Shown piece by piece: positions 3,671 to 47,348 of a stretch of DNA of 47,348 nt (its first letter is position 1; each line of letters opens with the position of its first letter). Below the pieces are notes generated by a model that was not told where the DNA came from, did not search any database, and worked only from the letters and a program-made list of their open reading frames with translations. The stretch comes from Kiritimatiellia bacterium (GTDB lineage Bacteria; Verrucomicrobiota; Kiritimatiellia; RFP12; UBA1067). The stretch spans positions 1-47,348 of the forward strand of contig JAFRSR010000394.1 in NCBI GenBank assembly GCA_017427485.1, in the 5' to 3' direction. The position numbers and the translations under genes were made by a program.

Positions 3671-4963
3671 TCACTCCCATTTGCCGCCGAAGGACTGCGG
3701 CGGGCGCAGGTGGATCGCGAAGCGGAACGACTCGTAGTTGTTGGCGGCGAGGTTGTCGACGTTTTCGACCTGGATCGCCGAGATCGCGTAGTAGCGCAGG
3801 CCGTGGTTGTCCTGGCAGTGCTGGCCGCGCAGCGCGCGGCGGGTGCCGTCCGTCGGGCCGACCGGGTCGACTGTCTCGGCGGCGGCGACGTTCCCGTCCT
3901 TGAAGCGGTCCAGCACGTATTCGGGGCGCGCGCCGATCAGGTCGTACAGCCCGTAGGGGTTGCCCAGATAGGAGCCGACGGGGACCAGCGAATATTGCGA
4001 CACGCCCTCCTCCAGCCGCGTGCGCCCGATCTGCACCACGAGGTTCGTGCAGTCCGCGTAGGACGTCTCGACCGTGCCGCCGTTGTACCAGATCGTGCTC
4101 GTGCCGCCGCGCGCGGCCTTCTCCCACTGCGCGTTCGTGGGCAGGTCGATCCAGAACCGGTTGCCGCACCGCTCGCGGAAGGTGTCGACGATGCTCCCCT
4201 CCTTCACCGCGAAGCGCGTCGTCGGCCAGTCGATGCGGTCCACGTTGTTCGAGCCGCGCAAGTGCGGATAGTAGGTGGCCCCCGTGACGGCCGGACGCAT
4301 GTCCACGCGCGTGTCAGTCGCATCGAGGATGAGGTAGCGCTGGGTGTGCGTCGTCTTGAAGATGGCGATGTAGTAGTCGTGCGTGATCTCCATCGTCTTC
4401 TGGGGGATGTAGTAACCGACGCTTGTATTGCCGGCTGCCGCGTCCAGATACGCCACCTCGTCGGCCGTGAGGCCCGCCGTGAACGTCCCGGCCGGAATGC
4501 GGCGGAACACCATCTTGCCCAGCTTGTACATGTCCTGGTTCCAGCCGCCGGTAGGTTCGTCCGCCGCATACTCCCACGTGCCGTCCTTCAAGTCGATGAC
4601 GAGCCACTTGCGCGCGTTCGCGGCGTCCTCCACGGGCGTCACCTGCACGGCGAAGTCCTTGAGCGCCGTCCCGTCCAGCCCCGCCGCCGCCGGGTCCCAT
4701 TCGAGGTGGTACATCCCCGGCTCCAGCTCCCAGAAGTCGCCCTTCGCGCCTGCGCGCTCCAGGTCCACCGTCCCCGGCACGCCGTTCGTGGTGAACGAGG
4801 CCGTCACGGCCACGTCGCACTTCGCACCGCCGGAAAGCGCGAAGTCGATGTCCACCTTCGCGTTCCACGGCCACCGCTGCGTCCAGCTGACGTTCGCCGT
4901 CATCGCCGCGCCCGCGCCGTACGCGCCGAGCAGCGCCGCCATTGCCCAAGCCAACTTTTTCAT
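3671..4963 (-). CDS. Secreted SUMF1-fold protein, copy 2
   Basis: 430 residues. A signal peptide (about residues 1-21, MKKLAWAMAALLGAYGAGAA) is followed by an Ig-like beta domain of about 130 residues that begins with WPWNAKV. A SUMF1/formylglycine-generating-enzyme-type fold follows, with FRRIPAGTF, HDYYIAIFKTT, CGNRFWIDLPTNAQWEKAAR and NPYGLYDLIG. The two cysteines and the RGGSW block needed for formylglycine generation are not seen, and there is no sulfatase nearby, so I read it as a structural or binding use of the fold. It ends in RPPQSFGGKWE, almost the same tail as its upstream neighbour, to which it is clearly paralogous. The ATG at 4963 overlaps the neighbour's TGA (ATGA, 4 bp) and has GGAGG 6-7 nt upstream, so translational coupling is likely. 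A much longer in-frame extension to 5632 overlaps the neighbour and was rejected. Confidence 0.85.
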   Translation of the reverse strand: MKKLAWAMAALLGAYGAGAAMTANVSWTQRWPWNAKVDIDFALSGGAKCDVAVTASFTTNGVPGTVDLERAGAKGDFWELEPGMYHLEWDPAAAGLDGTALKDFAVQVTPVEDAANARKWLVIDLKDGTWEYAADEPTGGWNQDMYKLGKMVFRRIPAGTFTAGLTADEVAYLDAAAGNTSVGYYIPQKTMEITHDYYIAIFKTTHTQRYLILDATDTRVDMRPAVTGATYYPHLRGSNNVDRIDWPTTRFAVKEGSIVDTFRERCGNRFWIDLPTNAQWEKAARGGTSTIWYNGGTVETSYADCTNLVVQIGRTRLEEGVSQYSLVPVGSYLGNPYGLYDLIGARPEYVLDRFKDGNVAAAETVDPVGPTDGTRRALRGQHCQDNHGLRYYAISAIQVENVDNLAANNYESFRFAIHLRPPQSFGGKWE

Positions 4964-6360
4964 TGCGCGCCTCCTTCCGGCTCCTCGTTCACCCACTTCC
5001 CGCCGAACGACTGCGGCGGGTTGAGATGAATCACGTAGCGGTAGCAATTCTCGTTGTTGGAGTTTTTGGGGTTGTCCGAGTTCAGGGCCCCGGCGAACGC
5101 GATCGACCAGTTGGAGATCGTCCCGTTGCTGCTGAAACTGTTGTTCACCATGCGGCTGTTGCGGCTCGCGTCCGCCATGCCGACGGGGTCGACGCCGGCG
5201 GACGCAACGGCGGCCTCCGACGAGTCCCACTGGTCCAGGAGGAGTTCCTGCCGGCTTCCAATCAGGTCGTAGAGGCCGTAGGCGTTCGGAAGAAGGTCGC
5301 CGACCGTGTTCGGCGGGGAGTAGACCCCGCCAATGCCGCAGTATTTTCTCTGGTAACCAAAGGAGATGCGGGCGATGATGTTCGTGATGGTGTCGAGCGA
5401 GTCGCCCACCGTGCCGCCGGACATGCCGCCGGGGTACGACGAGGTGTCGTAGAACAGCCACTTCGTGTCCGGACGCGCCGCCCGCTGCCACTGGGCGCAC
5501 GTGGGCAGGTCGATCCAGAACCGGTTGCCGCACCGCGCGCGGAACCGGCCGATGATCGAAGTCGGCGTGACGGCGAATTTCGTGAACGGCCAGTTGACGC
5601 CTTCCACCGAGTTGCTGCCGCGCTGAAAACACACATGACCCGCGGCGAACATCTGGCCTGCGTCCGGCGTGACTTGGTTGTAATAGCCGTTGGACGACGG
5701 CACATCCATGATGCGAGCGACTTGGGCGCGCGTCGTCTGGTAGATGGAAATGTAGTAGTCGCTCGTGAGCGTCGTCTCCGTCGCCGTGAGCATCTTGCTG
5801 CTGCTCGTCGCGCCGAGTTCCCGGTCAAGTCCCTTGATGTAGTCCTTCTCGGCCGTCGTGTAGCCGCGCGTGAACGTTCCGGCGGGAATGCGGCGGAACA
5901 CCATCTTGGACGTTTTGTACTGGTTGTCCTGCCACGGCTTGCCGTTGGCGTCCTTCGGCTCGTCGCCGAGCGCCACGAATTCGCTCGCGCCCGTCGCGAG
6001 GTCGATCACGAGCCAGGCGCGCTTGTCGGGCGTGAACGCCTTCGCCGTGACGTCCAGGGACGTCAGCGCCCCGCGATAGCCCAGCGCGGCGGGATCCCAC
6101 ACGAACCGCTTCGCGCCGCCCGTCAGGAAATAGGTCGAGCGCGAAAGGCCGTTCGCGTCCGTGAGCAGCAGCTCGTGGTGCGCGCCGCCGCTGTCGAACG
6201 ACGCGGTGATCTCCACGTCGTTCGTGCCGGCGGGCATCGTCACGTCGATGATCACCTTCGCGTCCCACGGCCAGTTCTGCCGCACGGTGTGCGGCACGTC
6301 CGCCGCCGTCACCGACAGCGCGCCTACAAGGCACGCAAGAAAGAGTCTTTTCGTCATCAT
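4960..6360 (-). CDS. Secreted SUMF1-fold protein, copy 1
   Basis: 466 residues. Signal peptide MMTKRLFLACLVGALSVTAA, then an Ig-like domain opening with WPWDAKV, then a SUMF1-type domain with FRRIPAGTF, SDYYISIYQTTRAQ, CGNRFWIDLPTCAQWQRAAR and NAYGLYDLIGSR. It ends NPPQSFGGKW plus a short charged tail. The catalytic cysteine region of true formylglycine-generating enzymes is not recognisable. I chose the first of two adjacent ATGs (6360, 6357) because AAGG stands 8 nt before it; an in-frame ATG at 6399 would add a hydrophilic leader before the signal peptide and is unlikely. It heads a tight three-gene unit with copy 2 and the GDPD-LamG gene. Its leader holds the long hairpin at 6402-6501. 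Confidence 0.85.
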   Translation of the reverse strand: MMTKRLFLACLVGALSVTAADVPHTVRQNWPWDAKVIIDVTMPAGTNDVEITASFDSGGAHHELLLTDANGLSRSTYFLTGGAKRFVWDPAALGYRGALTSLDVTAKAFTPDKRAWLVIDLATGASEFVALGDEPKDANGKPWQDNQYKTSKMVFRRIPAGTFTRGYTTAEKDYIKGLDRELGATSSSKMLTATETTLTSDYYISIYQTTRAQVARIMDVPSSNGYYNQVTPDAGQMFAAGHVCFQRGSNSVEGVNWPFTKFAVTPTSIIGRFRARCGNRFWIDLPTCAQWQRAARPDTKWLFYDTSSYPGGMSGGTVGDSLDTITNIIARISFGYQRKYCGIGGVYSPPNTVGDLLPNAYGLYDLIGSRQELLLDQWDSSEAAVASAGVDPVGMADASRNSRMVNNSFSSNGTISNWSIAFAGALNSDNPKNSNNENCYRYVIHLNPPQSFGGKWVNEEPEGGAQ

Positions 6361-6401
6361 CGTTTCAACCTTACCTGTAGCTTCCTTTTGACTTCTCATA
6401 T

Positions 6402-6563: not shown

Positions 6564-7268
6564 CTACCGAAAGATGATTGAAAAGCCCAGCGCCTTCGCG
6601 AGCAGGTAGGCCGTCAAGTACGTCGTGCCGTCGAACGCGAGCGCGGCCGTCACCGGCCCGCGCTTGCCGCCGAACGTCTCCTTCACGCTCATCGCGCCGT
6701 AGCCGCCCGTCGCCGGGAGCGTCCAGTTCCCGATCGCCGCGCCGTTCTTCACGGACGTCGCGAGCGTGGCGGACGCCGCGCCCATCGATTCCTCCGCCCA
6801 CAGATCGGACCACGCGTAGACGCGCGGCTCCGTAATCGCCTGGAAATCCTTGTCCGCCTCATCGACGAAGACCGTTGCGGAGCTGCCGACTTTCAGGCGC
6901 ACTGTCTGTTCCGCGACGGTCGCCGTGCCGTCAGTCTGCGCGAGCGTGACATCCAGCAGCTGCTCCGCTTCGCCGGATGCGGGGAGCGCGCATGAGCCGT
7001 CCGCCGCCGCGCCCCCGCCGCGCGCGACCGTCGTCGCGGACGTCGCGCCGGAAAGCACGTTGGAAACCGTCACCGTGGCCGACACGGCCCCGTCGGCCCA
7101 TTGCCAGACAAGCGGCTCGGCGGCGTCAAGCGCCACCTCCCACGCCCGCCCGTCCGCCGGATTGCGGTAGACCACGGGCGTGGCAACGGCATGCGTCGCA
7201 AACAGCAGGGCAAAAAGCATGGCTGTTCGCCAACACCAGCGTTCTGGTTTCACTTGTATCTGAATCAT
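6564..7268 (-). CDS. Small secreted protein with FSIIFR tail
   Basis: 234 residues, no recognised domain. The N terminus has a signal peptide after a charged start (hydrophobic run AMLFALLFATHAVA). The mature part is rich in Ala, Thr and Val and looks all-beta. It contains PVVYRNPADGRAWEV near the start and ETFGGKRGPVTAALAFDGTTY near the end. It closes with LGFSIIFR-stop, the same seven-residue pattern as three other secreted proteins here. I start it at 7268 because GGAG lies 10 nt upstream and a good promoter ends about 27 nt before; an ATG at 7370 would lie upstream of that promoter and adds a non-signal leader. It is probably transcribed alone or with the SUMF1-like genes to its left. Function unknown; surface protein likely. 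Confidence 0.75.
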   Translation of the reverse strand: MIQIQVKPERWCWRTAMLFALLFATHAVATPVVYRNPADGRAWEVALDAAEPLVWQWADGAVSATVTVSNVLSGATSATTVARGGGAAADGSCALPASGEAEQLLDVTLAQTDGTATVAEQTVRLKVGSSATVFVDEADKDFQAITEPRVYAWSDLWAEESMGAASATLATSVKNGAAIGNWTLPATGGYGAMSVKETFGGKRGPVTAALAFDGTTYLTAYLLAKALGFSIIFR

Positions 7269-7301
7269 GATGCACTTTCTCCTAAAAAACCAAGCAGGTA
7301 C

Positions 7302-7331
7302 ATAATACCATTGATTGCCCTTGTTTTGCAA
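7302..7331 (-). promoter_or_regulatory. Sigma-70-type promoter of the small secreted gene
   Basis: Minus-strand TTGCAA (7326-7331), 18 bp spacer, TATTAT (7302-7307). The start would be near 7295, leaving a 27-nt leader that contains the GGAG ribosome site. Confidence 0.6.
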
Positions 7332-7339
7332 CGGCAATC
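7313..7339. promoter_or_regulatory. Candidate operator palindrome over the -35 box
   Basis: Perfect inverted repeat GATTGCC (7313-7319) and GGCAATC (7333-7339) with a 13-nt spacer. The -35 hexamer lies in its centre, the position expected of a repressor site. The protein that would bind it is not evident in the window. Confidence 0.4.
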
Positions 7340-7398
7340 TTGGAAAATCGCTCAAAATCGCAACACGCATGGGTGAGAAACGCGTCTATGTTTAGGTC

Positions 7399-7412
7399 GC
7401 GCGGGAACGCGC
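7399..7412 (-). terminator. Weak hairpin after the 1467-residue beta-strand-repeat gene
   Basis: GCGCG-GGAA-CGCGC stem-loop 15 nt past the stop at 7427, without a U-tract. It lies between that stop and the next promoter, so partial termination is plausible. Confidence 0.3.
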
Positions 7413-7426
7413 CCCTCCCTCGTACA

Positions 7427-10400
7427 TCACCTGAATATCAGCATCATACCCGATCCGTCACCGATAAAGTTCATGATGCCCGTGCCAGAGAATAACGCAG
7501 ACTTGTTGCGCGCGCTGCTCGCCGCAGAACCCCATTTGCCGAGATTCTGTCGTTGCCAGACGCCGTTGGCGTCCTCAAGATACAGGTACCCCATCTTCTG
7601 CTCAACGCCCGCCGCGAGGTTGATGACGCCCGCGCTCCCGTAGGGAACGTAAAGCGACGCGTACTGGTCGAACGCCTTGGCGTGGTTCACCTGCACCGTG
7701 CCGCCCGCAAGCGTCACCTTGGGACCCGCCCAGCTGCCGCCGTCCATGATGGACGTCGGCTGCGGGACGCCGTAGTACGCCGCGCCCGGCGCCTCCATCA
7801 CGAGCGTCCCGCTCACCACGCTCAGCTCGCCTGTGGACGTGCAGGCGTTGCGCAGGTAACGCGTCCCCGTGCCGGCGTGGATGTACGACGCCGCGCCCGT
7901 GAAGACGGGCAGGATCTGCACCGTCTGCGACCCGCTCAGCTTGAGACGGGAGCCGCTCAGTCCGCTCACCTGCCCAGCGGAGAGGTATTTCACCGTGCCG
8001 TCGTCGTTCGTCGAGACCGTGCGGAACGACCGCGCGAGCTCCTGCGCCGTGTCGGTGAGGTCGAGCTTGCCGTAGAGCGGGACCTTGTTGCCCCACATGC
8101 AGAACTTCACGGTGTTGTCCGAGCGGATGGCGTTGTCCACGCGCAGCTCCAGCGTGTTGCTCACGTGCCAGGTCTCGCCGCCCGTGAACGAGTTGCCCGG
8201 ACAGGCCAGCACGTTTATCGTCGCGTTCTCCGCGTCCGTCCAGTAACATTTCTCGGAGACGACGGGCGTGTTGGAGATGATGCAGGAGCCGCCGGTCTCG
8301 GGCTGCATGATCAGGAAGTTGCCCGGGGCCATCCCGCCCGCGAAGGTGATCTGGGAATTGGCAGCTGGCGTGATGCGGAAGTGACCTCCCACGTTCGACG
8401 CCCTGCCGAGAACGAGGTTCGTGGTGTTGGCGACGGTCGTCAAGGTCCTTCTGTCCTCGGTCTGGTTGCACACGACGTCACGCGTCACGACGGCATTGTT
8501 GAGGACAACCAGCGAGTAGTCGCCCATGCCGGGTCGCTGGTAGTAGCGGAACGTGCCGCTGCCGCCGAGCGGATCGGCGCCGCTCACGTAGAATAATCCG
8601 TTCGTGGCCACGATGTCGCCGTAGACGTTGTTGTCGTTGCCAAAGACGTACACCGGGCCAAGGCCTTCCTTGGAGATCACGACCTCGCCCACCGAGGTGA
8701 GGCGGTTCGTGAACACGAGCGACATGTTTCGGGTGGCGGTGTCCGTCAGTCCGCCGACGCGGATGCCGAGTCCCTGGGCGACGCACACCGGCACGTCCAG
8801 CACCACGCTCTTGGCGACGGCCGTCGCGCTCGTCACGACGAGCGTGCCGTTGCCGAACATCACCTCGCCGCCCGCGGAGACGAGCCGCGCCGTGTCCGCC
8901 ACGCCGGAGGAGAACACGAATCCCTTGGCGACCACGTTTGTGTCGACCGTAGCCGTGAAACCGTTGCCCGGGAACAGGTACGTGCCCGTGCCGGACGCGA
9001 AGTCAGGCAGTACGCCCCCCTCCCAGTTCGCAGCCGTCGAGAAGCGTCCGTCCCCCGCGCCGGTCCACACGTATGTCGCCTCCTCGCCGCCGGAGGGCGG
9101 AAGGACCACCACCACGGCGGGACCGGCCAGCCCCTCCAGCGCCCTCACGTCACCGGACGCCTCGGACGAGTAGCGCCCCGGCGCAACCGCGTCGCCGTTC
9201 GCGTCCGTGACCGACGCGAAACAGTACTCGCCGGCGGGAAGCGTCAGCGTGCCCGCCTTGAGCGCGAGCGAGGTATCCATCCCAAACGCCTCGGGCCCCG
9301 GCACGTCGAGGACGCCGCCGTTCACGACGATGCGTCCGTTCCACTTGGCGCCGGGCTTCATCACGATCTGGCCGGCCGATGCGATGAGGCCGCCCGTCGT
9401 GGAGCTGGCCGCCGTGAGAAACACCTTGCCCGAACCCGCCTGCTCCAGCGACACCGCGCCCGTATAGATCGCGGAGTTCGTGTACACGCTCGCGGCGTTG
9501 AAGGTGATGAGCGCGGGCGGGCCGCTCGTGATCACGCCGGACGCGATGGGAGTCCAGTCGGAGGTGGACTTCGTCATCGCCTCGATCCGCGAGATCGACT
9601 GCGTCGTGCCGCAGAGGTCGAGAAGACCCGGACTGCCCAGATAGAAATAGGAACCCGACGTGAAGGCCCCGTTCACCGTCGCCCGCACGTGGTTCTGCAT
9701 GCCACGATTGTGGTCCCCATTGTACTGGGTGTACGTGTTGCCTGCGACCGCCCATGTGAGCCAGCCGACCGTGGCCGTGTCCCCGTAAATCTTCTGCGTC
9801 GTCGGCACGTTGGTCACGATGACCTCCGCGCCCGACCCCATGCTGTAGAACGAGCTGGTGTTGAACGAAGCGCCGCCGGCAATGACGAACTTGGCGTTCG
9901 CTCCCGTGTACATGCGCAGGTACGAGTTGGGCAAGCGCAGGTGCCCGACGAGCGTGTTCACCGTGTTGTCCTCGATCTGCAGTTGATTCTTGTAAGAGTT
10001 GGATCCGTCGTCGAGGTTGCGGATGATCAGTTCCTTCCTCACCGTGACGCCGCCAAGGACGAGATTGTAGGCGACGGGGTCGTTCCGCTTCGACACGTCG
10101 ATCGCGCCGGTGGCGTTGTCGCCAAGCGCGTTCTCGCCGCGCGCCGTCACACGGCCCGCGTTGATGAAGAGGGAGCCGGTGAACGAATTACTGCCCGTCA
10201 GGACGAGTTCGCCCGCGCCGAGTTTTGTGATGTCGGGCGCTCCCGAGATGTTGCCGGAAAGCGTCACGGTCTTGCCCGAGGCGACGTTGATCGGACGCGG
10301 ACCGTCGAGCAGGATGTCGTCGGTGATCGTGACGCTGTTGGTGAAGAAGGCCGTGTCCTGCGACTCGGGCTTCTTGGCGTCCCAGTTTGCGTCGTCGTTC

Positions 10401-11830
10401 CACGACACGCCGTCGCCCCGACCCGTCCAGTAGCGGTCCTCGTGGGTGGTCACGCCACTGGCGGTGACCGTCACCACGCCCGAGCCCGTCACCCAGTCCG
10501 CCGGCGTCGCGCCGGCGCCGTAGCTTCCCGCCGGCACAGTGACGCCCTTGTAGAACACCTGGCTCACGGTGACGTCCGCATCCGTGTCCAGTGCGCCGCC
10601 CTCGGCGATGTACACCGACAGCATGCCGTTGGCGAACGGGTTGGTCGACGAGGCGTCCACCTTCATCACGGCGCCGTTCGCGATGTTGAGCGTGAGGAGG
10701 CCTGCGAGCGCGCCCGATTTCGAGGACGCCAAGTGGAAAGTGGCGTTTGTGTTGACGGTGATCGCCGTGAGGTTCGCAAACGTCGCCGTGCCCGATACCT
10801 TCACCATGCCCCGCTTCACGGTGATCGAGCCCTCCGTCGTGCTTTCCTTCAGGGCAAACTCCTGCGTGTAGTCGCCACGCGGGTCCCACACGATCGAGAC
10901 GCCGGTGTTCACATAGCAGTTCGCATAGCAGTCCTGCCTGCCTTTGAGGGTGAGGGTCATGGCGCCCGCCGTCGACCTCAGGTATCGACACTCGTCGCGG
11001 CCGCTCGTATCGACCCAGGTGTTCGTAACGCCTCCCGCGACCTGGTCATGTCCCATGAAGTTGTATGAATACAGATTAATGCTGTTCTCCCTGTAGTAGT
11101 TGCTCCAGGTGAGGCACAGGCCGTCGGGGAAGACATTATCGGCCTCGCAGATCAAGCTGCTGTACGCCACGTCGACGTAGCCGATGACGTTGTTCGAAGC
11201 GTGGAGGTAACAATAACCGTTCTTGTAGCCGCGCCCGCAGAGGAGCTTCGCCGCCGTCAGCACGCCGTAGAAATGCACCGGCGTGTTCTCCCGGCCGCCC
11301 GTGTCGCCCATTGTCATCGTGACGGTGGTTCCCGTGCCCGTAAACGTCTTGTGGAAGTTGATTCTGCCGGACCTCTGGTTGTTGAGCGTGTACATCGTCA
11401 CCGTCTTGGTCCCCAAGGCGGTCACGTCCTCGTAGAAGTCGAGATTGGTCTTCACGGTTAAGGAATTGTTGCCCGTCTTCAACGTGACCGGAACGTTCAC
11501 GTCCGTCGCGACTGAGGTAGTAAGCGACGTGAACTTCAAGGCGCCAGTGCCGGAAAACGTAAGCTTCGAGCTTCCCGTGATGGTGATCGCGGCGCATTCG
11601 CGGTCGGTCGCGCCGAGATTGATCGTAAGTGCGGAAGAGCCGGTCGCGATGGACACGGCCTCGGATGCGCCCGGCAGGGCACCGCCCCAGTTGGCGGGAT
11701 CGCCCCAACTCGTGCCGTCGCCCGCTCCGGACCACGTGGCCGCGCGCAACGCGGCGCACGCGCACACGCACGCGGCGAACAGCGCCGCCCTCACATCAAA
11801 GTTCTTTTTCATCGGCTTGGTCTTCGTCAT
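7427..11830 (-). CDS. Large autotransporter-type beta-strand-repeat surface protein
   Basis: 1467 residues. Signal peptide in the first ~31 residues (hydrophobic AALFAACVCACAALRAA). The mature chain is a long beta-solenoid type sequence rich in Thr, Asn, Gly and Val. It holds passenger-type repeats such as LTGSNSFTGSLFINAGRV, typical of autotransporter-associated beta strand repeats (PATR). Three copies of a W-x-G-x-GDG-x-[SF]-x4-NW motif near residues 33, 467 and 919 mark three large segments. No C-terminal translocator barrel is present; the protein ends GSGMMLIFR-stop. The ribosome site GAGGTGA precedes the ATG at 11830; M7 is an in-frame alternative without one. It has its own promoter at 11884-11912. 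Likely an exported adhesin or glycan-binding protein; ligand unknown. Confidence 0.85.
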   Translation of the reverse strand: MTKTKPMKKNFDVRAALFAACVCACAALRAATWSGAGDGTSWGDPANWGGALPGASEAVSIATGSSALTINLGATDRECAAITITGSSKLTFSGTGALKFTSLTTSVATDVNVPVTLKTGNNSLTVKTNLDFYEDVTALGTKTVTMYTLNNQRSGRINFHKTFTGTGTTVTMTMGDTGGRENTPVHFYGVLTAAKLLCGRGYKNGYCYLHASNNVIGYVDVAYSSLICEADNVFPDGLCLTWSNYYRENSINLYSYNFMGHDQVAGGVTNTWVDTSGRDECRYLRSTAGAMTLTLKGRQDCYANCYVNTGVSIVWDPRGDYTQEFALKESTTEGSITVKRGMVKVSGTATFANLTAITVNTNATFHLASSKSGALAGLLTLNIANGAVMKVDASSTNPFANGMLSVYIAEGGALDTDADVTVSQVFYKGVTVPAGSYGAGATPADWVTGSGVVTVTASGVTTHEDRYWTGRGDGVSWNDDANWDAKKPESQDTAFFTNSVTITDDILLDGPRPINVASGKTVTLSGNISGAPDITKLGAGELVLTGSNSFTGSLFINAGRVTARGENALGDNATGAIDVSKRNDPVAYNLVLGGVTVRKELIIRNLDDGSNSYKNQLQIEDNTVNTLVGHLRLPNSYLRMYTGANAKFVIAGGASFNTSSFYSMGSGAEVIVTNVPTTQKIYGDTATVGWLTWAVAGNTYTQYNGDHNRGMQNHVRATVNGAFTSGSYFYLGSPGLLDLCGTTQSISRIEAMTKSTSDWTPIASGVITSGPPALITFNAASVYTNSAIYTGAVSLEQAGSGKVFLTAASSTTGGLIASAGQIVMKPGAKWNGRIVVNGGVLDVPGPEAFGMDTSLALKAGTLTLPAGEYCFASVTDANGDAVAPGRYSSEASGDVRALEGLAGPAVVVVLPPSGGEEATYVWTGAGDGRFSTAANWEGGVLPDFASGTGTYLFPGNGFTATVDTNVVAKGFVFSSGVADTARLVSAGGEVMFGNGTLVVTSATAVAKSVVLDVPVCVAQGLGIRVGGLTDTATRNMSLVFTNRLTSVGEVVISKEGLGPVYVFGNDNNVYGDIVATNGLFYVSGADPLGGSGTFRYYQRPGMGDYSLVVLNNAVVTRDVVCNQTEDRRTLTTVANTTNLVLGRASNVGGHFRITPAANSQITFAGGMAPGNFLIMQPETGGSCIISNTPVVSEKCYWTDAENATINVLACPGNSFTGGETWHVSNTLELRVDNAIRSDNTVKFCMWGNKVPLYGKLDLTDTAQELARSFRTVSTNDDGTVKYLSAGQVSGLSGSRLKLSGSQTVQILPVFTGAASYIHAGTGTRYLRNACTSTGELSVVSGTLVMEAPGAAYYGVPQPTSIMDGGSWAGPKVTLAGGTVQVNHAKAFDQYASLYVPYGSAGVINLAAGVEQKMGYLYLEDANGVWQRQNLGKWGSAASSARNKSALFSGTGIMNFIGDGSGMMLIFR

Positions 11831-11847
11831 TCTTCACCTCGCTTGAC
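11831..11847 (-). promoter_or_regulatory. Ribosome-binding leader shared by the two beta-strand-repeat genes
   Basis: The minus-strand leader carries AAGCGAGGTGAA just before ATG. The same 12 bases stand before the ATG of the other beta-strand-repeat gene (16973-16989). GAGGTGA fixes the start at 11830. The identity beyond the Shine-Dalgarno core suggests shared ancestry of the two 5' ends, whose first codons also read MTK. Confidence 0.55.
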
Positions 11848-11883
11848 GCTCGAGGGGGAGTGCCCCTATCAGAAAACATGGAC

Positions 11884-11912
11884 AGAATACCACATTCCAC
11901 GGCCGACTTCAA
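11884..11912 (-). promoter_or_regulatory. Promoter of the 1467-residue beta-strand-repeat gene
   Basis: Minus-strand TTGAAG (11907-11912), 17 bp, TATTCT (11884-11889), with TGG directly before the -10 (extended -10). The start is expected near 11877, giving a leader of about 46 nt that holds a small GGGG/CCCC hairpin (about 11854-11866) and the ribosome site. Confidence 0.6.
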
Positions 11913-11923
11913 GCGGCAACCGC

Positions 11924-14794
11924 CTAGCGGTCGGAGCGCTGCGGGCAGGTGAGGCCCACGTCCTCGGGCGCGTAGTTGACCGGCCAGCCTTCCGACGGCT
12001 TGCGACCGAACGCCTCGCGCACCGACTCGAGGATGCCGAAGCCCTGCGCGTGGTTCGGATAGCCCAGCGACCCCTCGCCCCATTCGTCCAGCGGTCCGAG
12101 GAGGAAGGTCCGCACGCCCGACTCGTCCCCGAACTTCCGCGCCTCGCGGCAGATCCGCGCGAAGTCGGCCACATTGTAGCCGCGTATCTCCAGGACGCGC
12201 TCGCCGCGCCAGGGCCGGTCGTCGTAGCCCGTCGAGATGGACGGCCAGAACGGAAGCGTTCCGTTCTTGTGGAGCGCGCGCCAGTGCGCCGGCGAAAGAT
12301 CCGCCAGCTTCTTGAACGTGCGCTGCCTTGACGCGAACTCCTCGCTTCCCGGTATGCCGCCGCGGAAACCGTACACGGTCGTGACGTCGAAGCCGTAGTC
12401 GGCGAACTGCTTGAGGAACGCCGCGTCTTCGTAATCCATCCCCATGCCCCGCATGGCCACGAAGTACACGCCGGGGAAACCGTACGAACACGCGATCTCC
12501 CGCGTCCGCTCCAGGAGCCGCTTCGCCCCGCCCTCGTTCTTGGTGCGCTGCTCCATCCCGGCGGGTCCGCAGATCGCCACGACGGGCTTGCCGTCGATCC
12601 GGTGGTACTGGACGTCGTCAAAGCAGTTCGTGCACCAGTAGTGCGCCAGCTTCTCCTGGTCCGCGAGCGAGTTGTAGCCGTTGTCCCACATCACGTGCCA
12701 CTTCAGGTACTTGCGGTAGCGCGCCTGACGGAAGGCCTTCATCCAGTGGTTCCGCGAGGGGACGCCGTTGCGCCAGTACCAGCACACGGAGACAAAAGAG
12801 ATGCCGTTCTCGACGAGGAACTTGATCTGCCAGTCCACCGTCTCGGGCGCCTCTTCGTCATACCAGCCGAGGACCGGCTTGCGCGCGTGGTCGTGGCTCC
12901 ACACCGCGTGCCACTTGTGGTTGACCCAGCCGGGGAACATCAGCGCGCCGATTTCGTAGGGCGCGGTGTCGACCGGCTTCGGCTCCGCCGGATAGTCGAG
13001 GCGCGGAAGGTTCAGCGACGGTTTGACGTCGGCCACCACCTCGATTCGGCGTGGCGCGACGCCATCGGCCGAGACGGACAGGCCGAACACGTGCTTCCCC
13101 GCGCCCAGGTCGTCCAGCCGGAACTTGAACACGCGCTCGTGCGGAAGCTGCGGGCCGCAGTCGTTGTTCAGCGACTCTTCCCCATTCGATCCCGGAAGCG
13201 GCTCGGCGGGCGCGAGCGCGGCCGCGTCCAGCGGTTTCACACCGTCCGGCAGTCCGTCGAAGGAAAAGCGGAGGTGCTCGGCGGGCAATGTGCCGAAGTT
13301 GCGCACGACCGCCTCCACGACGAACGGACGCCCCGCGCGGGGAACCGCTTCGGACGGTATCGCGCTTGTGATGACGGGGTCGGGCGGCAGCGACGGGCGT
13401 TCCTTGAGAAACCTGAAGTTCTCAACCTTGAGCTCGCGGTCTGCGAACGGCTGGCGCACGGCGAAGTTCATGATCCGTCCTGCCCAGCCCTTCTTACCGC
13501 GTGATTTGGCGTTTTCAAGGTCGAACCAGTACGCGTGTTCCCTGCCGTCGGGCGGCGTCGAGAAATGGAGTGCGCCGGATGCCGTCTCGCTGCCGCTCCA
13601 TTCAAGCGCGTAGTAGTTGATTCCCGGCGGCGCCTTTAGTGAGAACGCGACGCCGCGGGCGTCCTGTGCGAGGAAATCAACCTCGTCGCCTTCCTCGACG
13701 ACCGCGATGTCCGCGAGCTCGAACGGCGTTCCGCCCGCGAAACCGGCCGGGAAGTCGAACCTGAGTACGGAGATCTTTTCGGGGCCGCACCATCCCGGAC
13801 GAATCTTGTAGTTGTGCCACTTGCCGTCCCCGATGACCCAGAACGTCTTCTGGAACGTCTCGGATGGTCCTTTGGCGCCACGGTGGATCCAGAACAGCTG
13901 GCTTTTTCCGTCGCGCGGCACCTTCATGCGGAACGTGAAGAAACGGTTCCCTTGGGGTTCAAGAGGCTGCGCGAGCTTGACATGGAGCTGCGCGTCGCGT
14001 CCCGTGACCAGTCCCTTGAGCGAGTTGCCCTCCACGTGCATCTCGGCGATGTCTTCGTTCTTCCACCAGTCGGCGAGGCGTTCGCCCTTCCATTCAATCG
14101 GCAGGCCGGGCGGAGGGAAGAAGGCGTCGAGGATGCGTTCGGCAATGAGGGCCATGCCCTTGTCGCCCGGGTGTCCCGCGACGCCCGGATGCCAGAACTT
14201 TCCGATGGCCTTGCATTCCTTGGAGACGCCGAGATCCCAAAACTTAATGTATTTCACTCCGGCTTCCTGTGCCGCCTCGCGCTGCAACTGTGCCTTGACC
14301 ATGCTGGGCGAGAACACGCTGCAGGCGACCATGTCGCCTCCGTTCTTCGGCTTGAACATCCGATAGAGGTCACGCATTTTCGTCCTAAAGAGCGCTTTCT
14401 CCTCGTCCGTCTTCGGCATGGAGCAGTTCTCGCCGATGAAAATCACCGTGTAGTCCGCACCCCACGCGCGGTCCTCCGCAAACTGTCCGGCCATGTCGAA
14501 GCCCGCGAGATTACGCTCAAACGCCGCGATGTTCCGGAGACGGATCTCCGTCTTGCGGCCGGTCTTCGCCTCGATGCCGCGCGCGACCAGATGGGCGTAG
14601 TCCTTCTCGCGCGCACTGGCCGCCATGCCCCAGTCGTTCGTCCAGCCGATCTTCTGCGCAGGTCCATGGCGCGTCATGGAGTGACCAAGGTACAGGACCT
14701 TCAAAGGTGCCTGCGTATCCGCCGCCGCGCCGAGCGCGACCATCGCCGCACATGCGGCAACCGCCAATTTCCGACCTAATGATGATAATGCCAT
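11924..14794 (-). CDS. Secreted SGNH hydrolase-GH99-like fusion
   Basis: 956 residues. Signal peptide to about residue 25 (MVALGAAADT). Residues ~33-225 resemble an SGNH/GDSL hydrolase: VLYLGHSMTRHG places the nucleophile Ser in a GHS instead of GDS motif, VIFIGENCSM matches the Asn block, and HPGVAGHPGDKGM matches the His block. The middle (~230-600) is beta-rich and may bind carbohydrate. From about 620 to the end it resembles the GH99-like/WbsX domain: GALMFPGWVNHKW, KPVLGWYDEE, ENGISFVSVCWYWRNG, MWDNGYNSL and LGPLDEWGEGS. The likely role is an exported esterase coupled to an endo-acting glycosidase-like domain. It starts 15 bp after the stop of the 720-residue repeat protein and has AAGGA 8 nt before ATG. 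It lacks the FR tail of its neighbours. Confidence 0.75.
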   Translation of the reverse strand: MALSSLGRKLAVAACAAMVALGAAADTQAPLKVLYLGHSMTRHGPAQKIGWTNDWGMAASAREKDYAHLVARGIEAKTGRKTEIRLRNIAAFERNLAGFDMAGQFAEDRAWGADYTVIFIGENCSMPKTDEEKALFRTKMRDLYRMFKPKNGGDMVACSVFSPSMVKAQLQREAAQEAGVKYIKFWDLGVSKECKAIGKFWHPGVAGHPGDKGMALIAERILDAFFPPPGLPIEWKGERLADWWKNEDIAEMHVEGNSLKGLVTGRDAQLHVKLAQPLEPQGNRFFTFRMKVPRDGKSQLFWIHRGAKGPSETFQKTFWVIGDGKWHNYKIRPGWCGPEKISVLRFDFPAGFAGGTPFELADIAVVEEGDEVDFLAQDARGVAFSLKAPPGINYYALEWSGSETASGALHFSTPPDGREHAYWFDLENAKSRGKKGWAGRIMNFAVRQPFADRELKVENFRFLKERPSLPPDPVITSAIPSEAVPRAGRPFVVEAVVRNFGTLPAEHLRFSFDGLPDGVKPLDAAALAPAEPLPGSNGEESLNNDCGPQLPHERVFKFRLDDLGAGKHVFGLSVSADGVAPRRIEVVADVKPSLNLPRLDYPAEPKPVDTAPYEIGALMFPGWVNHKWHAVWSHDHARKPVLGWYDEEAPETVDWQIKFLVENGISFVSVCWYWRNGVPSRNHWMKAFRQARYRKYLKWHVMWDNGYNSLADQEKLAHYWCTNCFDDVQYHRIDGKPVVAICGPAGMEQRTKNEGGAKRLLERTREIACSYGFPGVYFVAMRGMGMDYEDAAFLKQFADYGFDVTTVYGFRGGIPGSEEFASRQRTFKKLADLSPAHWRALHKNGTLPFWPSISTGYDDRPWRGERVLEIRGYNVADFARICREARKFGDESGVRTFLLGPLDEWGEGSLGYPNHAQGFGILESVREAFGRKPSEGWPVNYAPEDVGLTCPQRSDR

Positions 14795-14809
14795 GGATAA
14801 TTTCCTTGT

Positions 14810-16972
14810 TCAGCGGAAAAGGATGGTCAGTCCGGCGACGCCGACCTGGATGCGGCCGGAACCAAGGATGTAGCCGGGAAGGTTCGCGGAGGTGTAGACG
14901 CCATTGCGGCGGCTCTCGCCGTCCGTCACGAGATGCGCGATGCACACCTTCTTGCCAGCCGCCACCTCCACCGTACCGCCGTCCGCGAGCGTCAGCGTCG
15001 CCTCGGGATTGAGGTTGTTCTCCCCGTTGAGGATGAGATGCGCCGGTATGATAGTTTCCGCGCGACGCACCACGATGTTCGTGCCGCCCCAGTAGGCGGC
15101 CGCCGTCAGGCGATTCGTGCAGCCCAGCATCGTGAACGAATTCGCCGGATTCGGCGAGTTGCCCGACATCTCCATGATGGCCACGGCGCCCGTGAAGTAG
15201 TTCGACACCACGAGCGAGCAGTCGACGGTGTCGGCGAGTTGCGATGTCTTGTTGCTTGAATGACGTCCGTTGATGATGTATTTCATCGTTTTGCCAGGCG
15301 CGGATATGCCCCCGGAAATGTGCAGAGGACCGTAATACCCGCAAACGACGAAGTCGCTGTCGGATTCGATGCCCCCGCTCAACCTCATCAGGTTCGACTG
15401 CTCGACGACATTGTGTTTGGAGGGCGGATTGTCGGTGACCTTCACGTGGTTCTTCACGACCGCGTTCCAGGGTGCGCCGACCAGCTTGGGCGTCGTGCCG
15501 CCCGTGTAGTCGAGTTCGACCGTCCCCGTCGCGGTTTTGAAGAGCGCCTTGTCCTGGACGCACAGTTCGACGATTCCGTCCGTCATCTTGAAGCCTCCCG
15601 TCGACTCCAGTTCGGCGCGCTCCCTTAATCGGCCCTTCCCGAGCTTCGTCAGAAGGCCGCTTCCCGTGAAGACGTTGTTGTTCGTCAGGATGCACGACTG
15701 GCCGACGTACAGGCTCATGCCGTCCGCGCCGATGTCGGTGGACTCGGCCTCCAGGTTGACGGTCTTGTTGAAGACGAGCAAATCGCCCGTGACGGGCGGC
15801 TGGCCGTCCGACCAGTTGCCACCGCTTGAGAAAAGACCGCTCTTCCCACCCGTCCAGACCTTGCAAGGATAATCGTTACCGACGATCAGCACCCCGCCCG
15901 GCGCATTCACGCCCGTCGGCATGTTCGCGGCCGTGTACAGCCCGTCGCTCTGCCGTGTGTCGCCGATCCACAGCTCCGCCACGCGCATGACCACGCTCGG
16001 CATGCTGAGCGTACCGCCGTTGAGCAACCTGATGACAGGCGGTGTGGAGAAATTGCTTAAGGCTGTGAGCGTCAGCATGTTGGTCGCGCCGCTCACCACC
16101 ACGTTCGTACCGCCCCAGACGCCTGTCGTGTCGATCTTCACCTCTCCGTCGTTCACCGTCAGTACGGCGTCGATCTGGTCCGACACGCCGGAGATGTGCA
16201 TCGGTTTCGGGCCCGACTTAGTGATCGATGCGTCAACCGGCGACTTGAGGTTCAGGTAGGTTCCTGCTCTCCCATCCACGCAATAGGCCGTCACCGTATG
16301 CCCGTGGGCATGGATTGGCGCAGTAAACGCGAAGGAACCATAGCCGTTGTAGATGGTAAAGTCGCCGTCGGCGTAGACCGGGCCGCTGATGGTCGCCGCG
16401 TTGCTGCAGTAGAAGGCCGCATAGTCGCCGTGGGTGTTGACGACCCTCAATTCATTCGTGAGGCCCGAACCCCATGCGGCAAAATGAATCTGCGGACGAC
16501 TGTTGTATCCGGAACTGGTGCCGTTGTACACCACTTCGACCGGCCCCGTCCCGAACGTCTTGACACCGCTGATGATCATGACGATCCTTCCCAGCTCCAG
16601 CCGCGTGCCGCCCGTGTGAGTGGAGAGAGTACGAAGGTTCATGTCGCCCGTTCCCCTCTTCACGATCTTCCCCGAACCGGCAAACTTGACATAGTTGTTG
16701 AGGGTGGCCGAGTTCTCGATGGTGAGTCCGGCGGAGCCGATGTCGAACGTCTCCTCCTCAAGGTCGACGGCCTTCGTGAACTTCACGGTGTCGCCGGGTC
16801 GCGGGCCGTACGTCGACGTGCCGCCTTCGTCGGCGCTCGTCCAGTTGGACGGCGTCGTGAACGAGCCGGCATTGGAGCCGCTCCACGTGAGCGTGTCGCC
16901 CCACGCGGCGCATGCGGCGGCGAAAAACGCCGCCCGCAGGACCAGGGTCTTTCCCGAGATCACCTTCGTCAT
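14810..16972 (-). CDS. Autotransporter-type beta-strand-repeat surface protein
   Basis: 720 residues. Signal peptide to about residue 26 (LRAAFFAAACAAWGDT). It holds two W-[ST]-G-x4-[SL]-F-x4-NW cassette openers (TWSGSNAGSFTTPSNW near 27 and VWTGGKSGLFSSGGNW near 371). Beta-solenoid repeats with phrases such as IKRGTGDMNLRTLSTHTGG-type strands (here KIVKRGTGDMNL) and LTKLGKGRL are characteristic of PATR repeats. It ends VGVAGLTILFR-stop with no barrel domain. The GAGGTGA ribosome site is conserved with the 1467-residue relative. It begins 31 bp after the EF-hand/LamG gene's stop and precedes the SGNH/GH99-like gene by 15 bp, so the three probably share one transcript starting at 18968 or so. 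Confidence 0.8.
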   Translation of the reverse strand: MTKVISGKTLVLRAAFFAAACAAWGDTLTWSGSNAGSFTTPSNWTSADEGGTSTYGPRPGDTVKFTKAVDLEEETFDIGSAGLTIENSATLNNYVKFAGSGKIVKRGTGDMNLRTLSTHTGGTRLELGRIVMIISGVKTFGTGPVEVVYNGTSSGYNSRPQIHFAAWGSGLTNELRVVNTHGDYAAFYCSNAATISGPVYADGDFTIYNGYGSFAFTAPIHAHGHTVTAYCVDGRAGTYLNLKSPVDASITKSGPKPMHISGVSDQIDAVLTVNDGEVKIDTTGVWGGTNVVVSGATNMLTLTALSNFSTPPVIRLLNGGTLSMPSVVMRVAELWIGDTRQSDGLYTAANMPTGVNAPGGVLIVGNDYPCKVWTGGKSGLFSSGGNWSDGQPPVTGDLLVFNKTVNLEAESTDIGADGMSLYVGQSCILTNNNVFTGSGLLTKLGKGRLRERAELESTGGFKMTDGIVELCVQDKALFKTATGTVELDYTGGTTPKLVGAPWNAVVKNHVKVTDNPPSKHNVVEQSNLMRLSGGIESDSDFVVCGYYGPLHISGGISAPGKTMKYIINGRHSSNKTSQLADTVDCSLVVSNYFTGAVAIMEMSGNSPNPANSFTMLGCTNRLTAAAYWGGTNIVVRRAETIIPAHLILNGENNLNPEATLTLADGGTVEVAAGKKVCIAHLVTDGESRRNGVYTSANLPGYILGSGRIQVGVAGLTILFR

Positions 16973-17003
16973 GTTTCACCTCGCTTTGCGGAAAACTTGT
17001 TTT

Positions 17004-18935
17004 TTATCGGAACAGAACGTAGGTTCCGACGGGACGGGGGATGAGCTCAAAGTGGTGGTAGTCGAGGCAGCACCAGTAGATGCCCTGGCCGATGTCCTTG
17101 ACCTTGATCGTGTTCCAGCCGGGAGTCAACTCGCCGGGTGCGATGTCGAAAGAGAACACCGTGTTGTCCGGCACCCCGTTCGCCGTTCCGGTTGTCCAGC
17201 GCGGCGTCTCCTCGTCGTTCAGGAACGCCGCGAACGGCCATTGCTTTTCGGTATAGCCGTAGGTGGACGCAATGCCGGACACGTCGCTTGCGCCCTGTGC
17301 CATCACGCGACCGGAATACCTGTACCCGTACTTCGCCAGGGCCTTGCTCACCCAGAAGCGGAAAATGACCTGATTGACGCTGTTGTTCGAGTTCGGCATG
17401 CCGCGCTGGCAGCCGGCGAAGTTCCAGTCGCCCGGATAGTACACGCAGGGCGTCGGCATGACGCCCTCGACGGAAAACTCGGCGTTCTTTCCGTCGTCCG
17501 CGCCCACCGTCCACGACCCGCCGAGCTCCAGCATGTCGAACGACAGCGACGCCGCCGTCCCGCCCGTCCGCGTGAGCGTGATGGTGTTGGCCGCGTTCGC
17601 GAATGTGTTGGACCTGATGTCCCACGACGCTTCGTCTCCTGCGGCGAGCGTGCGCGTGGGATTGATCCTGTTGCCGTTGATTGCAAGCGCGAGCGTCGTG
17701 GTGCCCGCCGCGCCGGCCGCCGCCTTCACGCGCAGCACGTGCGCCAGCTTCGGCACGTCTACGCCGCGCGGCGTGAACGAGAGCGTCAGGGTCGGGTTGC
17801 TGGCAGAAATGCTCTTCGGCATCTCGCGCCACGGCGCGTTGTCGGCGTCGTACGCGGCCGGCGTCTCCTCGGGCAGGCCGAACTCGCCGTCCGACCCGTC
17901 CTCCACGCCGACCCTGAACGTCGTCGAGTCCTTCGTCATCACGCGTAGCAGTTCATCCTGGGAAAGCGCCCGCTTCCACATGATCAGCCGGTTCAAGTCG
18001 CAGCTGATCGCCTTGCCGCCCTGCCCGTTGCGGGCATGGCTCTCGCCGCCGATGCGAAGGAATTGCCCGGCGTTCAGCTCGTTGTAGAACACGTTGCTCA
18101 TCGTCTTTTCAAGGTAGCGGAAGCTGCGCGTCCCGCGCCCGTCCTTCACGTTGGGCAGAACTTTGTCGGGGCCGGGATCGCGGACCAGGAACGAGCATGT
18201 CGCGGTGTTGTCTCCGTTGTTCCGGACCGTCCACGCGACGTCATACCACAGGTTCGTATACAAATTGATCCCGGTGCTGCCAGACGTCGACGCGGTGCCC
18301 GCGCCCACCATGGACACGAGGCTCGCATTCGTGGCGATGCCGTTTGGAACGGTCGTGTAGACGAAGCCGAAACACGACCCTCCGGCCTGCACCGGATCCG
18401 CATTCCACTTCTGCCCATTGAACACCAGCCAGGCGTAGTTGCCCGCGCCGGATATCCCCGGCTGCGCGAAGCTCTGGACGCGCACGCGCGCCACCACCGT
18501 CACGTTTCCCGTGATGGCGCCGGTGGAATACTCGATCCGCTGCGACTGCGAGTTCGTCGTAAACGTGCCGTTTCCGTTGTCGACGATGCGCTGGTCGCAC
18601 CGGAAGTTGAGCGCATCCATTGTACGCGAGACGCCCCGGCTGGGATCCATCACGGGGACGTGCGACCAGCTGGCGCGGCCGTAGTCGTTTTCGTTAAAGC
18701 TCGCCGACGGCGAGGTCTGGGCGTAGCCGTTGAAGTTGGTGCTGCCCCAATGGCGGACGTCGCGGAGCTCCTCCAGCTGCACCTTGCCGTCGCCGTTGAT
18801 GTCCTTGTCGAACACGAAGTGGTGCACCGCGTCTGCAAGCGGATCCGCGAAGCCGTCCGCGAAGCATGCGGCGGCGAGCGAACAAAACGCGACAAGGGCC
18901 ATCCCCGGCGCTCTTTTGGAAAAAACCTCAATCAT
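17004..18935 (-). CDS. Secreted EF-hand/LamG protein with YVLFR tail
   Basis: 643 residues. Hydrophobic signal segment at about 10-26 (GMALVAFCSLAAACFA). Residues ~46-57 form a textbook EF-hand loop, DINGDGKVQLEE, so calcium binding is likely. Residues ~100-330 look like a LamG/concanavalin domain (NVTVVARVRV, YAWLVFNGQKW, LNRLIMWKRALSQDELLRV). The C-terminal ~280 residues resemble the galactose-binding-like domain found in rhamnogalacturonan lyases (LRVKAAAGAAGTTTLALAING, WNTIKVKDIG, CCLDYHHFEL). It ends PVGTYVLFR-stop. No catalytic residues were recognised, so it is more likely a binding protein than an enzyme. It heads the unit with the two genes to its left and has a promoter with a palindrome. 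AAGG lies about 13 nt before ATG, a rather long spacing. Confidence 0.75.
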   Translation of the reverse strand: MIEVFSKRAPGMALVAFCSLAAACFADGFADPLADAVHHFVFDKDINGDGKVQLEELRDVRHWGSTNFNGYAQTSPSASFNENDYGRASWSHVPVMDPSRGVSRTMDALNFRCDQRIVDNGNGTFTTNSQSQRIEYSTGAITGNVTVVARVRVQSFAQPGISGAGNYAWLVFNGQKWNADPVQAGGSCFGFVYTTVPNGIATNASLVSMVGAGTASTSGSTGINLYTNLWYDVAWTVRNNGDNTATCSFLVRDPGPDKVLPNVKDGRGTRSFRYLEKTMSNVFYNELNAGQFLRIGGESHARNGQGGKAISCDLNRLIMWKRALSQDELLRVMTKDSTTFRVGVEDGSDGEFGLPEETPAAYDADNAPWREMPKSISASNPTLTLSFTPRGVDVPKLAHVLRVKAAAGAAGTTTLALAINGNRINPTRTLAAGDEASWDIRSNTFANAANTITLTRTGGTAASLSFDMLELGGSWTVGADDGKNAEFSVEGVMPTPCVYYPGDWNFAGCQRGMPNSNNSVNQVIFRFWVSKALAKYGYRYSGRVMAQGASDVSGIASTYGYTEKQWPFAAFLNDEETPRWTTGTANGVPDNTVFSFDIAPGELTPGWNTIKVKDIGQGIYWCCLDYHHFELIPRPVGTYVLFR

Positions 18936-45488: not shown

Positions 45489-47348
45489 CTACTGCACCAC
45501 GACCATCGTGCCGCCGCCGGCGCCCCTGTAGACGAGCTTCGTTCCGTTGTCCTCGACGATCACCTGGCCGCGTTTCCGCGCGGGCGTGTTGACGAACTCG
45601 ACGTTCGCCGCGAGCATCTCGAGCGAGGCGGTGGAGTCCGTCGCGCACGTAAGGAGCGTCTGCCTGCGGCCAAGGCGGTCCGGATCGAACGCCGAGGCGT
45701 CGATCACGATCTTCGATGGGACGACAGAATAGGTCTGCACGGACTCGTCCGCATCGGCGACGACTCTCACGCCGCCCGCCGTCGTGATCGGCGTCGCGGC
45801 GAAGCCGTTCGCCGGAAGCGTGAACCGGAGTTGCGCGCCCGCGCGCAGCTTGATCGAGTCGGCGTCCGTACCGGTCACGCCGACGCTCGCCGCCGTGCCC
45901 GACACGTGGAAGTAGTCGTTCGAGCTGCAACGCCCGTTTTCCTTCGATCCGATGTAGAGGACCTTGCAGCCGGACATCGTCGAATCGTCTACTTGGATGC
46001 CGCTGTACGACGTATCGCCGGTAGCGCCGATCTCGACCTTCGCCGATCCCGCGGCGAACGTCGAGCCGCCCTGCACGTTCAGGACGCAGTTCGTCGAATT
46101 GATGGCCAATCCGCTCACATACCGCGCCACGCCCACGAAGAAGCGCTGCACGCCCGAAAGCGTCAGCGTGCCGCCGTTCCGCACCGTCATCGACGTGCCA
46201 GGGCCGCCCGAACCCTTGTACGAGACGCCGACGCCGAAACCCGTGCTCTTGAGCGTCAGCGACGCGTTGTCCACGACCAACCTCGTGCTGTTGCCGCCCA
46301 CATCCTCAAAGCTCCGCCCGATGCAGCCGATGTAGCAACCGACCGAGGCGAAATATTCCGAACTGGAGGGGATCGTGACTGTCGCGCCGTCGCTAATCGT
46401 GAAGTCCACGTCGCGGTGTATCCAAGGGTCGTTGATGTTGGCCGTCGTCCCCGCGCCCGTGATCTCGATCTGCATCCTGTCGTACACGCCGGCGGGATAT
46501 GTGCTCATCCGGTCCTGCTCGGCGTAGGCGCGGATTCCCTTGCAGGCGAACGTCGCGCCGCCTGCCACGCGCAGGCTCGTGAACGCGCCAAGCATCGTGA
46601 TGTCCTTGCGGATCGTCGCTGTCGTGCCCGGCCCCACCACGCTGAGCGAACCCGAGCCGGCCAGGAAAGGCCGAGCCGAGGCGGGATCGGGCCCCGTGTA
46701 GCCGATCGTGGTTGACGTCCGGTCGACAATGTAATCGGAGAAGGCTCCCAGCTTGAGTTCCTCAGCCTGGAACGTGCCGTTGGTGAGCGCGAGGCGGGCA
46801 AAGCGATCCGACGAGTAGCCGTATGTTCCCTGCGCCTCGACGTTGCCCATGACCGTGAGCTTATGTCCGCCCATGTCAACCGTCACGTCGATGCTCGGGG
46901 CGTAGCCGATGCGGCCGTTGCGCGCGCGCAGCGCGCCGATCGTCTGGTTCTGCCCAAGCGCGATCGTGTAGGTGCCGAGCGGCAGCTCCACCGTGTTGTC
47001 CGTGCCGGGGAGCGCGTCCGCCGCGTCGACCTCGCGCCAGTTGCCGAGCGTCTCGAACGCGCCGTCGCCGCCGGCCCACCTGAGCGCGTTCGCGTAGCGC
47101 ACCTTGTCGATCTTGTTGTTCTGCCACACCCGCTCCCTAGTAAGCTCGCCGTCGTAGAGACGCGCGGCGTAGATGCGCCCCTTGAAGGTTTGCCCGCCCG
47201 TCGAGCGGCCGCCGACGCCCACAACGCTGCCCGAAGCCCAATTGTCGAGGTCGGCCGGGCGGCCTTTGTTCTGCTCGTAGTTCATCTTCTCGCCGTCGAG
47301 GTACACGGTCGCGTTCGTCGGCACGTCATACGGGGTCGCGCACGTAAG
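45489..47348 (-). CDS. LamG/beta-strand surface protein (5' end outside window)
   Basis: The start lies beyond the right edge; 619 C-terminal residues are visible and read in frame from the last base. The first ~80 residues are the end of a LamG domain (DVPTNATVYLDGEKMNY, GRIYAARLYDGELTRERV, NNKIDKVRYANAL), close in pattern to the LamG modules of the GDPD-LamG protein. RWAGGDGAFETLGNW then marks the same cassette opener as in the beta-strand-repeat proteins. A beta-solenoid type region rich in Gly, Thr and Val follows to the end. It finishes YRGAGGGTMVVVQ-stop, related in shape to, but not the same as, the G-x-x-[ILV]-[IL]-F-R tails. No catalytic motif seen; a surface binding protein is likely. 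Confidence 0.75.
   Translation of the reverse strand, partial: LTCATPYDVPTNATVYLDGEKMNYEQNKGRPADLDNWASGSVVGVGGRSTGGQTFKGRIYAARLYDGELTRERVWQNNKIDKVRYANALRWAGGDGAFETLGNWREVDAADALPGTDNTVELPLGTYTIALGQNQTIGALRARNGRIGYAPSIDVTVDMGGHKLTVMGNVEAQGTYGYSSDRFARLALTNGTFQAEELKLGAFSDYIVDRTSTTIGYTGPDPASARPFLAGSGSLSVVGPGTTATIRKDITMLGAFTSLRVAGGATFACKGIRAYAEQDRMSTYPAGVYDRMQIEITGAGTTANINDPWIHRDVDFTISDGATVTIPSSSEYFASVGCYIGCIGRSFEDVGGNSTRLVVDNASLTLKSTGFGVGVSYKGSGGPGTSMTVRNGGTLTLSGVQRFFVGVARYVSGLAINSTNCVLNVQGGSTFAAGSAKVEIGATGDTSYSGIQVDDSTMSGCKVLYIGSKENGRCSSNDYFHVSGTAASVGVTGTDADSIKLRAGAQLRFTLPANGFAATPITTAGGVRVVADADESVQTYSVVPSKIVIDASAFDPDRLGRRQTLLTCATDSTASLEMLAANVEFVNTPARKRGQVIVEDNGTKLVYRGAGGGTMVVVQ

Follow-up and report, generated by a model that had tools for sequence, protein, structure and literature searches.

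Bacterial C-terminal sorting signals known to date fall into two kinds, tripartite signals that include a membrane helix (PMC11980579; PMC1569441) and folded domains of at least 43 residues (PMC11969387). Among the former, the PEP-CTERM/exosortase system (TIGR02595, PF07589; EpsH, PF09721) marks the C terminus of many unrelated exported proteins per genome with a 24-residue signal that occupies the anchor slot, opens on an early proline within a near-invariant Pro-Glu-Pro and continues into a transmembrane helix and a basic tail; in published signals of this kind the hydrophobic stretch is 14 residues long (PMC1569441). MYXO-CTERM, GlyGly-CTERM and LPXTG signals likewise end surface proteins with a short motif, hydrophobic residues and a basic residue, and each has a transmembrane helix along with a membrane-bound protease (PMC11980579). 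The C-terminal domain (CTD) of type IX secretion (Por_Secre_tail) is a beta-type signal on surface proteins that contains a G-x-hydrophobic strand, folds over at least 43 residues and requires SprA, PorV and PorU; even the short signals of Prevotella intermedia still span 43 to 55 residues with motifs B, D and E (PMC11969387).

The tag described here has seven residues, a size similar to that of the eukaryotic SKL and KDEL signals. Like the beta-signal of outer-membrane proteins, whose general form is x-x-G-x-x-hydrophobic-x-hydrophobic, it is an exactly C-terminal hydrophobic strand with a conserved Gly; unlike the tag, however, the beta-signal is part of a barrel, alternates in pattern and ends on an aromatic residue. 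The 24-residue length, Pro-Glu-Pro, helix and basic tail of PEP-CTERM are all missing from the tag, as is the sortase-like tripartite architecture of motif, transmembrane helix and basic tail. The original prediction had known of no named sorting signal of this form. Tagged proteins scanned against NCBIfam and Pfam gave no match, and nor did the literature searched; no earlier description of the tag was found in the literature and families searched.

C-terminal heptapeptides in the window and its genome

The window is a stretch of 47,348 nucleotides that makes up one complete contig (C361) of G000, a draft genome of 6.3 Mb in 446 contigs with 7% contamination. The four C termini of the original prediction all lie where it had placed them, on the minus strand, and its fifth, truncated protein was found as well, in a frame that leaves the contig (Table 1). 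A window-wide check of reading frames found no ending of this kind beyond these five.

Table 1. Tags and tagged proteins of the window.
Feature	Position	Strand	Basis
Tag GTYVLFR-stop, after linker PRPV	17004..17027	-	Sequence; beyond the folded part of the AlphaFold model
Tagged exported protein, 643 aa, EF-hand-like and CBM-like domains	17004..18935	-	Domain scan, relatives, AlphaFold model
Tag GLTILFR-stop	14810..14833	-	Sequence
Tagged exported beta-strand-repeat protein, 720 aa	14810..16972	-	Weak TIGR02601 match
Tag GMMLIFR-stop	7427..7450	-	Sequence
Tagged exported PATR beta-strand-repeat protein, 1467 aa	7427..11830	-	TIGR02601, PF12951
Tag GFSIIFR-stop	6564..6587	-	Sequence
Tagged small exported protein, 218-268 aa by choice of start	6564..7370	-	No family match
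Tag GTMVVVQ-stop	45489..45512	-	Sequence; matches the wider consensus GTxΦΦΦ[RKQ]
Tagged protein, ORF runs off the contig end	45489..47348	-	Sequence

Across the whole of G000, the pattern GxxΦΦFR-stop (Φ, hydrophobic) has 108 matches (54 + 54) and the reversed-pattern control 2 (0 + 2), while a typical count elsewhere in the phylum is 0 to 5. Among called genes, the motif is C-terminal in 16 of 259 proteins, from contigs partly picked for containing matches, where its frequency inside proteins predicts 0.008; on unselected contigs of genome G260, its wider form (see below) ends 8 of 181 proteins and is never found internally, over 70,610 residues. At 27 of the 30 loci opened, the match is the true end of an open reading frame of at least 100 codons (of the other three, two end in TGG and one is a very short frame). 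Among complete genes, N-termini resembling signal peptides, as called by a crude detector that was home-made like the gene calling, occur in 41 of the 48 that are tagged and in 334 of the 753 that are not (Fisher p = 1.3e-8). Chance, the first of the two counter-explanations named with the original prediction, fails against these figures, since both the genome count and the enrichment at the C termini of exported proteins lie far above its level. The tag itself is solid; its function and its receptor are what we infer.

The stop codons that follow the tag are TGA in 12 cases, TAG in 12 and TAA in 7, five Arg codons are in use, and the 60 bases 3′ of the stop have nothing in common between loci. 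Because all three stops and five Arg codons occur and the downstream DNA is not conserved, selection acts on the end of the protein, that is, on a protein C-terminal signal. The diversity of codons rules out a DNA-level element, and the use of all three stops, together with the lack of a conserved downstream frame, rules out that a membrane helix lies hidden behind the stop and is reached by recoding or read-through.

Wider form, range and dialects

The C termini of relatives' exported proteins yield a more general form, [P-x]-G-T-x-Φ-Φ-Φ-[R/K/Q]-stop, whose sequence logo gives G 98 and T 100, with P at -9 in 33% (4% in the background) and at -10 in 20%. Matches to this wider pattern and to its reversed control number 120 and 2 in G000, 82 and 2 in G333, 109 and 3 in G260, 27 and 0 in G101, and 38 and 1 in G397. 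Other families of the class carry it too (21 and 2 in G110, 12 and 1 in G509, 15 and 2 in G501, 16 and 2 in G202), and the endings at opened loci of G110 and G509 include PPAGTLILIR, PPPSGTLMIIR and QPPAGTLMMIR. Phylum genomes outside the class Kiritimatiellae have 0 to 4 matches, similar to the control. The distribution within the class is uneven, with few or no matches in many small genomes (genera g3 and g8). When the tight pattern was run against 84,980 species genomes, repeated matches came from rumen MAGs of this group (RUG572, RUG10884, RUG11483), and most other taxa were matched once, as expected by chance. By analogy with these congeners, the window would come from a gut or rumen member of the class. 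In gut and rumen Kiritimatiellae, dozens to more than 100 mostly unrelated exported proteins per genome share the tag.

The last two positions are spelled differently in each lineage: F in 92% and R in 97% in G000, L in 58% and K in 54% in G101, I in 67% and Q in 44% in G260. The G000 logo set was partly selected by its FR pattern, and the genome counts nonetheless agree with the dialects, an Arg-type last codon being present in 108 of the 120 wider-pattern matches in G000, 48 of 109 in G260 and 9 of 27 in G101. Such concerted change of many unrelated proteins within a lineage is as expected from one common reader per lineage. The motif first proposed, GxxΦΦFR, is therefore real but too narrow, FR being the local dialect of GTxΦΦΦ[RKQ]; likewise, the cluster within 12 kb from which it was read does hold tags, but tags are spread over the whole genome and over several families of the class.

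Carriers and the position of the tag within them

Tagged proteins are long, with a median of 1078 aa against 451 aa for other exported proteins, and their domains are PATR and other beta-strand repeats, LamG, PMP repeats, right-handed beta-helices and CBM-like modules. The 193 residues that precede the tag place 31 of these proteins in 17 sequence clusters, the one large cluster (14 members) being the beta-repeat group. The 643-aa protein of the window was modelled with AlphaFold2 from a 19-sequence alignment (mean pLDDT 78, pTM 0.81); in this single model, the last strand stops at residue 632, and linker and tag (633-643) form a coil whose pLDDT declines from 67 to 50. Its tag is thus predicted to hang free as a low-confidence tail instead of forming the final strand of the domain. 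A common last domain, the second counter-explanation, is ruled out by the clusters and by the model, and the carriers are mostly unrelated.

Relatives of the same protein occur in 8 of 16 genomes of the genus, with the tag present in the copies that were read. Diverged relatives and paralogues (26-39% identity) keep it as well and vary its spelling, as in RPVGTYVLFR, PIPNGTMILMR, DRPHATMLLVK and YNPATFLIVR. In a few tagged proteins, a choice-of-anchor Q domain (NF041518), which owes its name to its place ahead of alternative anchors, stands immediately N-terminal of the tag (L020 in G000; L243 and L261 in G110, which belongs to another family), and L007, also tagged, has a weak choice-of-anchor C match. 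Since a choice-of-anchor domain directly precedes it in several proteins, the tag occupies the anchor slot.

The enzymes of the window (GH51, GH9, GH97, GH2, SASA esterase, WbsX/GDSL and FGE-sulfatase-like) are all untagged, in agreement with the original prediction for the enzymes next to the tagged proteins. The absence of enzymes is a tendency only, because a 2226-aa tagged protein of G101 (L188:8111-14788) has weak FAD-oxidoreductase-like matches at two places besides a PATR repeat, an uncommon combination of enzyme and adhesin features.

Other features of the window and of related genomes were recorded alongside. On the minus strand, two adjacent exported proteins (3671-6399), one with an FGE-sulfatase match, share an unrelated conserved end, PPQSFGGKW, in one case with a short extension; a 661-aa exported protein (21119-23104) combines GDPD phosphodiesterase and BNR sialidase-like domains; and a 701-aa protein with two AAA ATPase domains and AAA_lid_6 (31215-33320) lies among carbohydrate enzymes. 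A second C-terminal region that recurs within the family is found on untagged exported proteins that end in GRSDGYVAGGGPGYTG... or similar (L192:6629 and 4614 in G101; L134:1786 and 17394 in G260).

Candidate readers and the possible route to the surface

A beta-signal read by BAM, in which the tail would mimic the last strand of a barrel and recruit the protein to BamA, agrees with the exactly C-terminal position and with the spacing of Gly and hydrophobic residues, and a BamA-type Omp85 is encoded in all genomes tested. We nevertheless regard it as unlikely: the hydrophobic residues of the tag are consecutive, not alternating, and the basic residue comes last, after the aromatic one, whereas the likely true barrels of the same genomes end in ..SYRF or ..VTW. 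Moreover, NCBIfam and Pfam scans detected no barrel family in the tagged proteins scanned, the tail lies outside the folded domain in one model, and tag-negative genomes have the same BamA. An extra Omp85/BamA copy as the receptor was ruled out, as nearly all genomes have one copy, with no correlation with the tag.

It is improbable, too, that the tag is a reduced PEP-CTERM signal, namely the start of the P-x-[AG]-T-hydrophobic signal with a shortened helix, handled by exosortase. The proline-rich opening and [GA]-T-hydrophobic core do look like the way a PEP-CTERM signal begins, the tag fills the anchor slot behind choice-of-anchor Q, and exosortase is present in 56 of the 58 genomes of the window genome's family. 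However, the tag has a single Pro at -9 or -10 in place of Pro-Glu-Pro, and it runs through only three or four hydrophobic residues and one basic or polar residue to the stop; with so few hydrophobics and no basic cluster, the tag is unable to cross a membrane. Classical PEP-CTERM proteins with a full helix exist alongside, 1 to 15 per genome in 53 of the 58 family genomes, and tag-negative genomes have exosortase too. Exosortase, being near-ubiquitous and supplied with its own classical substrates, was accordingly ruled out as the reader, and its equal presence in tag-rich and tag-poor genomes marks exosortase/PEP-CTERM as a separate system. On contig C103 of G000, a PEP-CTERM protein (VPTVPEPGAVLCLVLAALVLVFALAFRARRARA; L041:11398-13759) lies directly upstream of an exosortase (C103:13809-14528), the two being likely a dedicated pair.

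PDZ and tail-specific proteases recognise free hydrophobic C-terminal tails, and the hydrophobic C terminus is free in the AlphaFold model. This would suit a tail that governs stability or quality control in the periplasm, with a chaperone or a PDZ protease as its reader. The conservation of Gly-Thr, proline linker and terminal basic residue on more than 100 proteins favours a dedicated address instead, and PDZ domains usually prefer a hydrophobic last residue, so that we give this reading a low probability. A type IX signal cut down to one strand is very unlikely, for although the G-x-hydrophobic-[KR] of the tag resembles motif D (GxY then Ile; PMC11969387), SprA_N is absent from the 58 family genomes and from 15 tag-positive and tag-negative genomes (Sphingobacterium control, 7.9e-153), and the tagged proteins share no folded CTD.

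The tag is probably an address label for the cell surface, one that matches no known sorting signal tested. On balance, we lean towards a short C-terminal sorting or anchoring signal of the Kiritimatiellae that would serve surface display, for which the docking strand of an outer-membrane secretion or anchoring system, suggested in the original prediction, would still be the best mechanism. On this docking model, Sec would export the tagged protein, consistent with the signal-peptide-like N-termini observed, and the last domain would fold while the tail stays free, with its proline-rich linker of two to four residues, Gly-Thr, three or four consecutive hydrophobics and terminal basic or polar residue. 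In the periplasm, a dedicated outer-membrane receptor or translocon, one partner per lineage, may then accommodate the tail in a groove as an added short beta-strand and would also read the terminal carboxylate and the last side chain. Large beta-rich, adhesin-like or lectin-like proteins would thereby be brought to, or held at, the cell surface; most enzymes lack the tag.

More tentatively, and with somewhat less confidence than in the signal as such, we propose that a separate outer-membrane sorting or anchoring machine exists in the Kiritimatiellae, for which a free seven-residue C-terminal peptide, lacking both a membrane helix and a folded domain, may be the sole cargo address, recognised by strand addition and carboxylate, with dialects that would have coevolved with the receptor. 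Searches of related genomes for SprA, exosortase/PEP-CTERM and an extra BamA copy yielded no receptor, peptidase or transport machine that fits the tag. Tag-poor genomes seem to have fewer large beta-repeat proteins as well, so the presence or absence of the tag gives no pointer to a machine.

If this reading is true, an exactly C-terminal address of seven residues, free of any helix and carried by up to about 100 proteins per genome, would represent a new solution to surface display. It would also explain where hundreds of giant proteins that lack annotation end up in rumen and gut Kiritimatiellae, and the tag would offer a simple bait in the search for its receptor.
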